DNA of 13,634 bases from positions 1-13,634 of the forward strand of contig JARGFV010000070.1 in NCBI GenBank assembly GCA_029210545.1, in the 5' to 3' direction. Below, piece by piece: positions 5,865-13,383 of this stretch. The first letter of the stretch is position 1. The number at the start of each line of letters is the position of its first letter. The position numbers and the translations under genes were made by a program. The notes beneath the pieces are model-generated. The model was not told the origin of the DNA. It did not search any database and saw only the letters and a program-made list of their open reading frames with translations. This DNA comes from a bacterium. Its GTDB lineage: Bacteria > BMS3Abin14.

Positions 5865-9977
<4,113 letters not shown>

Positions 9978-10054
9978 TAAGGCAGATTTCTTGCCAGATC
10001 GCTATAACACGGACGGTCTTTATATGACCGTCCGTGTTTTTTTAATCTGCCTTA
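9978..10054 (+). terminator. Intrinsic terminator after rpoC, nested in an outer inverted repeat
   Basis: A perfect 13-bp stem pairs 10006-10018 (AACACGGACGGTC) with 10026-10038 around TTTATAT, and a T-run extends through 10037-10043. This is a textbook rho-independent terminator for the rplJL-rpoBC transcript. Outside it, 9978-9988 (TAAGGCAGATT) is perfectly complementary to 10044-10054, an additional 11-bp stem that encloses the terminator and its T-run. Confidence 0.93.
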
Positions 10055-10055
10055 T

Positions 10056-10090
10056 GAGTGAACGGTTGACAGTATACGGTGAACAGTCTG
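10056..10090. repeat. Degenerate 7-bp repeat array, left block
   Basis: Five consecutive heptamers with a period of 7 begin GAGTGAA, CGGTTGA and continue with CAGTATA-, CGGTGAA- and CAGTCTG-type units, consensus CRGTGAA. The block starts directly after the rpoC terminator. A second block of the same family in opposite orientation lies at 10125-10159. Confidence 0.5.
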
Positions 10091-10124
10091 GAAAACCTTC
10101 AAAAACGGTTATTTTCAGGCGATT

Positions 10125-10159
10125 TCACTGTAAACAGTGAACTGTTAACTGTTAACTTA
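10125..10159. repeat. Degenerate 7-bp repeat array, right block (inverted)
   Basis: Five heptamers of period 7 follow consensus NAACTGT (for example GAACTGT then TAACTGT). Read on the other strand they match the left block consensus ACAGTNA at about 19 of 28 compared positions. The block includes a local palindrome, 10126-10131 (CACTGT) with 10134-10139. It ends 7 bp before the -35 box of the str promoter. Confidence 0.5.
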
Positions 10160-10166
10160 AAACCCC

Positions 10167-10195
10167 TTGACAAAGTAACTTTGCATCGATAATAT
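10167..10195 (+). promoter_or_regulatory. Sigma70-type promoter of the str operon
   Basis: A consensus -35 TTGACA (10167-10172) is separated by exactly 17 bp from TAATAT (10190-10195), one change from TATAAT-like consensus at most two positions. It is downstream of the rpoC terminator and upstream of rpsL, facing the right way. Initiation is expected near 10202. A 6-bp dyad, CAAAGT (10171-10176) with ACTTTG (10178-10183), overlaps the end of the -35 and the spacer and could be an operator. Confidence 0.85.
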
Positions 10196-10201
10196 TTCTG
10201 A

Positions 10202-10408
10202 GTTTTCCCATAAGCGGAAAGTTGCCCCTTGCGGGGCTTTTTCGAAAAGAATTTCCGGTTCAAAAACAAAGGGTTATAAAACCCGGGAGCCGGTAATGAG
10301 GGAGCTGGAGCAGGCCCCCACAAGGGCCGTGTGCGCCGCGACAGGCTCCTTATGCCCTTTAAGGGTCCCTGCAGGTTGAAATCAGGGGTCATAACGAGGA
10401 GTTGAAAC
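10202..10408 (+). promoter_or_regulatory. Structured 5' leader of rpsL
   Basis: The roughly 200-nt leader appears to fold into three consecutive domains. Domain 1 (10215-10244) is terminator-like: an outer CGGAAAG/TTTTTCG helix over GCCCC (10224-10228) with GGGGC (10233-10237). Domain 2 pairs 10255-10261 (CCGGTTC) with 10287-10293 (one G-U) and encloses GGGTT (10271-10275) with AACCC (10280-10284). Domain 3 pairs 10299-10305 (AGGGAGC) with 10345-10351 (one G-U) and encloses GGCCC (10313-10317) with GGGCC (10324-10328). The rpsL SD AGGAG is at 10397-10401. Regulation by attenuation or ribosomal-protein binding is inferred. Confidence 0.5.
10224..10242 (+). terminator. Terminator-like hairpin in the rpsL leader
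   Basis: The stem is GCCCC (10224-10228), loop TTGC, GGGGC (10233-10237), followed directly by five T residues (10238-10242). Its position about 20 nt after the expected transcription start suggests an attenuator, not an operon end. Upstream TTTCC (near 10204-10208) could pair with GGAAA (10216-10220) and compete with the base of the hairpin. Confidence 0.55.
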
Positions 10409-10780
10409 ATGCCGACACTGAACCAGCTGGTGAGAAAGAGCAGGAAGAAAGCGGTCAGAAAGTCAAAGACCCCGGCCATGCAGCAGTGCCCCCAGAAAAG
10501 GGGTGTCTGCACGAGGGTGTACACCACGACACCAAAAAAGCCCAACTCAGCCCTCAGGAAAGTGGCCCGCGTCAGGCTGACCAACGGTATCGAGGTCACA
10601 TCCTATATCCCGGGGGTCGGACATAACCTCCAGGAGCACTCGGTGGTTCTTATCCGCGGCGGCAGGGTCAAGGATCTTCCCGGTGTCCGCTATCACATCC
10701 TGAGGGGCACCCTTGATACAGCCGGTGTCGCCGACAGGAGGCAGAGTCGGTCCAAATACGGGACCAAGAGACCCAAGTAA
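10409..10780 (+). CDS. rpsL: 30S ribosomal protein S12
   Basis: S12 lies at the decoding centre, controls accuracy and is the classical site of streptomycin resistance. The 123-residue product is the standard length. The [19 protein letters not shown] block (residues 39-57) carries K43 and K44. The second loop, [13 protein letters not shown] (residues 84-96), carries K88, D89 (the position modified by RimO in E. coli) and P91. All are wild-type, so no streptomycin-resistance change is seen. The basic C-terminus ends [11 protein letters not shown]. The start is ATG at 10409 with AGGAG (10397-10401) 7 nt away. It is the first gene of the str operon and lies 15 nt before rpsG. Confidence 0.99.
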
Positions 10781-10795
10781 CACCGGAGGCAGCAG

Positions 10796-11266
10796 ATGGC
10801 TCGACGAAGAAGTGCCCAGAAGAGAGATGTTATTCCGGATCCGAAGTACAAGGACAAGCTCGTTGCCAAGTTCATGAACAACCTCATGCTTGACGGCAAG
10901 AAAAGCCTGGCCGAGAAGATTTTCTACGGATCCATGGACCTCATCCAGGACAAGGTTCATGAGGACCCCCTGGGGGTTTTCAAAAGTGCTGTGGAGAACG
11001 CGAAACCTATCCTGGAGGTGAAATCCAGGCGGGTGGGCGGTGCTACCTACCAGGTTCCCATCGAAGTACGGGCTGACAGGAAGCTGGCTCTCGCCATCCG
11101 TTGGCTCATATCCAACGCGAAGGCCCGCACCGAACGGACCATGGTGGAGCGGCTAGCCAACGAGTTTATCGACGCCGCCAACAAACGCGGTAATACGATC
11201 AAGAAGAAGGAAGATGTCCACCGGATGGCCGAAGCCAACAAGGCTTTTGCCCATTACAGGTGGTAG
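10796..11266 (+). CDS. rpsG: 30S ribosomal protein S7
   Basis: S7 nucleates assembly of the 16S rRNA 3' domain (the 30S head) and borders the E site. The 156-residue product is typical in length and starts [18 protein letters not shown], with the basic N-terminal arm that contacts rRNA. Conserved blocks include [15 protein letters not shown] (about residues 77-91) and the C-terminal [11 protein letters not shown]. The start is ATG at 10796 with GGAGG (10785-10789) 6 nt away. In E. coli S7 represses the operon by binding an rpsL-rpsG spacer of about 96 nt; here the spacer is 15 nt, so that form of control is unlikely. The stop TAG is followed at once by AGGAGG, which appears to serve fusA. Confidence 0.99.
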
Positions 11267-11304
11267 AGGAGGCAGTCAACGCCCAGCGTTGCTGAATAAA
11301 AGTG
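11267..11304 (+). promoter_or_regulatory. fusA ribosome-binding region with a hairpin-bridged SD
   Basis: The only good SD before fusA is AGGAGG (11267-11272), 29 nt from the GTG at 11302, too far for a direct fit. Between them a hairpin pairs CAG-CAACGC (11273-11282, with T11276 bulged) with GCGTTG-CTG (11286-11294) around CCA. If it forms, the folded gap is the seven bases 11295-11301, an ideal spacing. Upstream of the GTG the frame meets TGA at 11293, so no earlier start exists. Confidence 0.6.
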
Positions 11305-13383
11305 GCACGGCAGTATCAACTCAAAAATCATAGAAATATCGGTATCATGGCCCACATCGATGCCGGTAAGACGACCACCACCGAGCGGATCCTTTTTTAT
11401 ACTGGAGTCTCCCACAAGATGGGGGAGGTCCACGATGGCGCCGCTGTCATGGACTGGATGGAGCAGGAACAGGAGCGGGGGATCACCATCACCTCGGCTG
11501 CCACCACCACCTTCTGGAAGGATACCCGTATCAACGTCATCGACACCCCCGGCCATGTGGACTTCACCGTGGAGGTGGAAAGGTCCCTCAGGGTCCTCGA
11601 TGGCGCGGTGGCGGTGTTCTGCTCCGTTGGCGGCGTCGAGCCGCAATCGGAAACGGTCTGGAGGCAGGCTGACAAGTACCGCGTTCCGAGGATCGCCTTT
11701 GTCAACAAGATGGACCGGACCGGTGCCGATTTTGGCCGGGTAGTCCAGATGATAAGGGACAGGCTCGGCGCGACGGCTGTCCCTATCCAGATCCCTTACG
11801 GAGCCGAGGACAAGTTCCGCGGCATCATCGACCTGGTACGTGAGGTCATGTATATCTTTGACGAAGAGACTCTGGGGGCGGCAATACAGGAAGTCCCCAT
11901 TCCGGCTGAAATGGCAGACGAGGTTGCCGGGGCGCGGGAGGCCCTCATGGAGTCCCTGGCCGACATGGACGACTCTCTCATGGAGAGGTACCTCGAAGGC
12001 GAGGAGATCGATGTCGATCGTGTCAAGTCGGTCATCCGCAAAGCCACCCTTGAACTTGCCATCGTCCCTGTCATGTGCGGCAGTGCCTTCAAGAACAAGG
12101 GCGTACAGACCCTTCTCGACGCTGTTGTGGACTACCTTCCTTCTCCCCTCGACACTCCGCCCATGAACGGGATTGATCCACGCAATGGCGACGCCTTGAC
12201 GGTGACCGCCGATGACGATGCGCCTTTTTCGGCCCTGGCGTTCAAGATCATGACCGACCCCTTCGTTGGACACCTGACCTTTATCCGGATCTATTCCGGC
12301 CACCTTGCGGCGGGCAGCTATGTTCTCAACGCGACCTCAGGTCGCAAGGAGCGCATCGGGAGGCTCCTGAAGATGCACGCCAACAAGAGGGAGGACATCA
12401 AGGATGTCTATTCCGGGGACATTGTGGCCTGTGTGGGCCTTTCCAAGAGCGTGACGGGGGATACCCTGTGCTCCCTGGACCGGCCGATCCTTCTCGAGGA
12501 GATGGACTTCCCGGAGCCTGTGATCTCCATCGCCATCGAGCCGAAGACCAAGGCTGACCAGGAGAAGCTGGGCACGGCACTGCAGAAACTTTCCCAGGAG
12601 GACCCCACTTTCAGGGTAACAACGGACCCCGACACCGGACAGACCCTCATTGCCGGGATGGGGGAACTGCACCTGGAGATCATCGTCGACCGTCTCATGC
12701 GCGAGTTCAAAATCGGCGCGACCGTCGGACGACCGCAGGTCGCCTACCGGGAGACGATCACCGCCTCAGTCAAGGCCGAGGCCCGCTTTATCAAGCAAAG
12801 CGGCGGCCGCGGCCAGTTCGGGCATGTGTGGATCGAGATGGAGCCCGGGGAGACTGGAAGCGGTATCGTATTTACGAACAACATCGTGGGTGGGGTCATC
12901 CCAAGGGAGTATATCCCCGCCGTTCAGAAGGGTGTCGAGGAGGCGTCCCACCAGGGGATCCTGGGTGGCTACCCGGTCCTCGACGTGAAGGTGAGCCTTT
13001 TCGACGGCTCGTACCACGAGGTCGATTCGTCGGAGATGGCGTTCAAGGTTGCAGGCTCCATGGCCTTCAAGGAGGCCGCCAGGAAAGCCGGTGCCGTCCT
13101 CCTCGAACCGGTGATGGACGTGGAAGTCGTTGTACCGGAGGAGTATGTGGGAGACGTCATGGGTGATCTCAGCAGCCGCCGCGGCAAGGTGTCGAATATG
13201 GACGAAAGGGCCGGGGCCAGGATCGTGACGGCCACCGTACCTCTCGCTGCCATGTTCGGATACGCCACCGACCTGCGCTCCATGACACAGGGAAGGGCAA
13301 CCTACTCCATGCATTTTGCGCACTATGAGCGGGTGCCCGTTAACATTGCCGAGGAAGTCCTCGCCCACTCGGGCGTTGCCTGA
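11302..13383 (+). CDS. fusA: Elongation factor G
   Basis: EF-G is the GTPase that drives translocation, and with RRF it splits ribosomes. The 693-residue product matches canonical EF-G. The P-loop AHIDAGKTT (residues 17-25), switch [13 protein letters not shown]3 DTPGHVDF (from D81, with catalytic-type H85), G4 NKMD (residues 135-138) and G5 CGSA are all present. Domain II begins around [12 protein letters not shown] and domain IV contains [15 protein letters not shown] and the tip segment [10 protein letters not shown]. The start is GTG at 11302, giving [20 protein letters not shown] as expected; an in-frame TGA lies three codons upstream. Its SD is distant and probably bridged by a hairpin. 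It sits 35 nt after rpsG and 44 nt before tuf. Confidence 0.98.

Follow-up and report, generated by a model that had tools for sequence, protein, structure and literature searches.

A putative hairpin-bridged Shine-Dalgarno site at the rpsG-fusA junction, shared by three related bacterial genera

Results

The window (the whole stretch of 13,634 nucleotides that was analysed) contains, besides fusA, the genes rplJ, rplL, rpoB, rpoC, rpsL and rpsG and a tuf-like gene that follows fusA. The fusA gene, which encodes EF-G (11302..13383, plus strand), lies downstream of rpsG, the ribosomal protein S7 cistron (10796..11266, plus strand). All genes of the window other than fusA have a normal local Shine-Dalgarno (SD) sequence. 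The rpsG stop codon TAG (11264..11266) directly abuts AGGAGG (11267..11272), which is followed by a 22-nt block CAGTCAACGCCCAGCGTTGCTG (11273..11294), the 7-nt spacer AATAAAA (11295..11301) and GTG; all these elements, which make up the 11264-11304 region, are on the plus strand. Since an in-frame TGA (11293-11295) is found directly upstream and the product from GTG 11302 has a canonical EF-G N-terminus (MARQYQL...), this codon is the only possible fusA start among ATG, GTG and TTG triplets.

An earlier note on this DNA had claimed that AGGAGG is 29 nt from the sole possible fusA start and that nothing resembling an SD is located closer. The coordinates and the translation bear out the distance exactly, and no nearer SD words are present: the best local duplex with the anti-SD has a free energy of +0.4 kcal/mol, versus -9.8 kcal/mol for AGGAGGC. 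The anti-SD, CCTCCTTT, is intact at the 3' end of 16S rRNA of G003, a member of the same clade. A split site of the T4 gene 25 type has its strong SD too far out to function (beyond about 15 nt from the start) and none in range, and fusA, with an SD at 29 nt and no SD in range, agrees with this. At an unfolded distance of 29 nt, standard spacing models would rule out the use of AGGAGG (judging from the RBS-calculator penalty, which is indicative only).

The gap between AGGAGG and the start codon is predicted to be structured. RNAfold folds the 22-nt block as (((.((((((...))))))))) at -9.4 kcal/mol, i.e., CAG(T)CAACGC-CCA-GCGTTGCTG, with nine pairs, a bulged T11276 and a CCA loop, and the pair probability of the hairpin in its sequence context is 0.95-0.99. 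The 9-bp hairpin with one bulged T, as had been noted earlier, thus starts on the base after the SD and leaves 7 nt, predicted to be single-stranded, to the GTG. A stable structure that would restore a workable spacing is therefore at hand. A hairpin folding equally well was obtained in 1 of 200 dinucleotide shuffles of the 22 nt, and an equally good bridging hairpin in 3 of 5000 shuffles of the 29-nt gap. The element has no match in Rfam and is not a known RNA family. It is not an intrinsic terminator or attenuator either, as AATAAAA rather than a T run follows the stem and the hairpin is absent from the terminator scan.

In order to see how often such arrangements arise, open reading frames, called crudely as the longest non-overlapping frames, were searched in 40 stretches of the own genome (G000) and one str-operon locus, and in 20 stretches of G008 together with the str-operon locus of that genome. 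Relative to shuffling, there was no excess of GGAGG-hairpin-start arrangements either in the own genome (9 found versus 9.05 expected, 679 ORFs) or in G008 (4 found versus 4.75 expected, 362 ORFs). General use of split SDs as a genome-wide adaptation is thus rejected for the surveyed ORFs. Because the survey counts equal the shuffle expectation, single split-SD instances mean little, and the case for fusA rests on conservation.

The comparison set consisted of 12 species of one family, the only representatives of their phylum in the genome collection used; a search of a collection of named genomes gave matches in more distant phyla only, at 69% identity or less. Ten of these have rpsG; the bins of genus g6 (G005 and G010) are without a str-operon fusA. 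The arrangement was found in five of the ten species with the junction: the own genome (genus g1), G008, G011 and G003 (g4) and G002 (g3). Common to all five are the stop codon, [A/G]GGAGG directly after it, an 8-9 bp hairpin directly after the SD, exactly 7 nt, and a GTG or TTG start. A covariance model detected the junction in all five genomes with E values of 4e-8 or better, these genomes being also its training set. No further convincing copy turned up: in the own genome, the runner-up (E 0.028) falls within a coding frame whose translation looks NuoE-like. A repeated element inserted in the spacer is thus rejected, since there is a single copy in each genome.

Neutral positions around the junction are close to saturation: fourfold-degenerate sites of rpsG and of the fusA start differ by 44-63% between g1, g3 and g4, and by 55-63% in the comparisons of the own genome with G008 and G003 and of the latter two with each other. 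Over the 28 nt of SD and hairpin, there are only five differences between the own genome and G008, seven between the own genome and G003 and three between G008 and G003 (11-25%), with binomial P values for such low divergence of 7e-6, 5e-5 and 1e-6, respectively. The stem is retained with altered sequence in G008, G011, G003 and G002. Across species, stem pair 2 is A-U, G-U or G-C and pair 5 is A-U or G-C; the bulge (T, T or A) occupies three different places among the distinct sequences, and the loops vary (CCA, GCA, GTA, AGC). When the same number of substitutions was introduced at random, equal stability was kept in about 0.2-1.6% of trials.

The alignment of rpsG-fusA spacers that the earlier note had proposed as a test of stem covariation supports the note's reading of the junction. 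The SD and the 7-nt distance proved constant and the stem was kept despite near-saturated neutral divergence. Formal covariation by strict columns was weak, not above that of shuffles, since the position of the bulge shifts and the alignment comprises no more than four different sequences. There is also one uncompensated A-A mismatch in the G002 stem. If the bulge is disregarded, 35 of the 36 pair cells hold standard pairs in folds read by hand, a way of counting that favours structure by construction. Judging from these comparisons, it is apparently structure rather than sequence that is conserved in the stem.

The remaining species of the family behave differently. In a tree of S7, EF-G and S12 parts, genera g1, g3, g4 and g7 group in a clade (94/98) that excludes g2, g5 and g8. 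In species of the latter three genera, the fusA start is preceded at 6-7 nt by GGAG or GAGGA, and AGGAGG is missing after the rpsG stop; their spacer hairpin, where present, is upstream of the local SD. These sister-genus hairpins (L006, L008 and L011, position 1972 onward) can be extensive, with about 11 perfect pairs in G007. G006, the g7 species, combines TGGAGG and a weak stem after it with a local AAGGA at a distance of 5 nt from the start. Altogether, among the ten family species five are bridged, four have a local SD and one has both. The comparison supports replacement of the local SD by a distal SD with a bridging hairpin in g1, g3 and g4. The simplest history is that this shift took place once, within the clade, and that both elements were retained in g7.

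Beyond the family, a local SD was found at 45 of 55 other bacterial EF-G starts sampled, and no convincing bridge was seen among the remaining 10. In a Myxococcota MAG (L070), the rpsG stop TAG is likewise directly followed by GGAGG, which is separated from the fusA ATG by 19 nt that could form no more than a weak hairpin; this junction may be an independent, weaker case.

Several further features of the locus were recorded. The rpoC-rpsL gap (9977-10409) contains a strong terminator-like hairpin of 13 pairs followed by a T run (10006-10038) and a σ70-like promoter (10167-10195), so the str operon is probably a transcription unit of its own. The rpsL-rpsG spacer (10781-10795 in the window; L004-L012 in relatives) measures about 15-20 nt across nearly the whole family and offers hardly any space for an S7 regulatory site of the E. 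coli type. An S7-type autogenous site in this spacer, for which there was also no Rfam match, is accordingly unlikely in nearly all ten relatives. Additional EF-G loci are present in the genome (G000:C109:3235-3903, L002 and L196; G000:C2:24220-24903, L202). The second EF-G is 62% identical over the N-terminal third and has an ATG start with a local AGGAG, and the third is divergent (39%). A second EF-G copy is found in G003, G008, G011, G006, G005 and G010 as well. Since this copy exists, the bridged fusA may not be the only source of EF-G.

Discussion

The fusA gene very probably has a structure-bridged, or split, ribosome-binding site. Bridged initiation is well supported by sequence comparison, because the parts of the site are conserved and the local SD is reciprocally lost. 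One can envisage that the anti-SD of the 30S subunit would pair with AGGAGG just past the rpsG stop, while the 22 nt after the SD would fold into the hairpin and be bulged out. The effective distance between SD and start would then be 7 nt plus the helix junction, not 29 nt, and GTG 11302 could reach the P site. That the hairpin stays folded on the 30S subunit and that initiation proceeds through AGGAGG is what we infer from this layout.

With TAG in its A site, a ribosome would, given the size of its footprint, extend over AGGAGG and the bottom of the hairpin's 5' arm. This, together with the coupling of fus translation to that of rpsG in E. coli (PMC10931766), makes coupling plausible here. 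It is probable that fusA initiation is coupled to rpsG termination: a ribosome ending rpsG would sit over the SD and the stem base, fusA initiation would follow termination, and the SD could catch the 30S subunit released after it.

Three other explanations of the junction have to be considered. Ribosomes that finish rpsG could scan about 35 nt to the GTG without pairing to AGGAGG, in which case the hairpin would be neutral or would only protect the mRNA. Such pure termination-reinitiation agrees with the E. coli coupling, with the short spacer and A-rich start zone and with the fusA start being GTG or TTG in all ten family members. However, it leaves unexplained both the restriction of a constant AGGAGG and 7-nt distance to species that lack a local SD and the apparently compensated stem, and we consider it unlikely. 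A chance combination of an AGGAGG with a hairpin ahead of the start would be compatible with the chance-level counts of split-SD-like arrangements in the surveyed genomes. Yet the junction is kept across g1, g3 and g4 where neutral sites are nearly saturated, with changes that keep the stem; on the grounds of this conservation a chance origin, very improbable in our estimate, is rejected.

Alternatively, the hairpin might be bound by a regulator, for example S7, or mark a processing site, the upstream SD being incidental. S7 acts as a repressor of the E. coli str operon (PMC10931766), the short rpsL-rpsG gap in the family makes an E. coli-type site there unlikely, and hairpins occur in the rpsG-fusA spacers of sister genera too. 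But the loop and the bulge vary, unlike in a protein target, and neither an Rfam match nor a T run is present, which disfavours this explanation, in our estimate less likely still than reinitiation. A bridged site thus remains the preferred reading.

The mechanism itself is known. At the 26-25 junction of phage T4, the SD of gene 25 is 27 nt from the start, a distance cut to 11 nt by an mRNA hairpin; the bridge occurs in closely related T-even phages but not in T4-like phages that are more distant (PMC3014915). The fusA junction shares with it the far SD, the putative hairpin bridge, the intercistronic position and the character of a clade-specific derived trait. It differs in that it is chromosomal and belongs to an essential translation gene of the str operon; moreover, the fusA SD abuts the upstream stop, the stem starts on the next base and the folded spacing is 7 nt. 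In T4 gene 38, a 22-nt spacing is likewise reduced by a hairpin, to 5 nt (PMC3014915), but this phage gene is homologous neither to fusA nor to the fusA junction.

Among chromosomal systems, initiation at E. coli rpsA depends on conserved mRNA folding without a canonical SD (PMC10931766). This, too, is a gene of the translation apparatus with a structured initiation region, but it relies on S1 binding and a weak SD, and no strong distal SD is drawn near by one hairpin. The E. coli str operon has the same gene order, but its regulatory structure lies between rpsL and rpsG, whereas here the structure is between rpsG and fusA. The earlier note knew of no description of a split SD at a core operon gene, and the open-access literature, to which our search was confined (subscription papers were not covered), likewise gave no chromosomal core-gene case, though such absence is not proof. 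What is new is apparently the conserved instance at a chromosomal core gene.

In G008, the pairing of the hairpin 3' arm with the fusA start (GGCAAGGC) is calculated to be 4.3 kcal/mol more stable than the bridge in naked RNA (L005, 1972-2050), and this competing fold either weakens the case for a bridge in that species or hints at a switch. The earlier note had suggested that the junction could tie EF-G synthesis to helix stability, temperature or rpsG translation, ideas that here draw on the geometry and on the E. coli coupling. It is conceivable that EF-G synthesis is controlled through the bridged SD: ribosomes terminating on rpsG would unfold the stem and sit over the SD, and the amount of EF-G made relative to S7 would be set by refolding or, in G008, by the competing fold with the fusA start, so that the essential operon might carry a switch sensitive to temperature or growth rate. 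We put this forward as a speculation with a low, though appreciable, probability.

Split, hairpin-bridged sites have been known chiefly as T4 curiosities. Gene start prediction that uses a fixed SD window will label such bridged genes as SD-less. The sister genera, in which a local SD, both elements or only the bridged site are found, constitute a natural series for the evolution of bridged sites. That a case is conserved at an essential chromosomal gene, one normally expressed at a high level, suggests that core translation in cells can depend on a bridged site.
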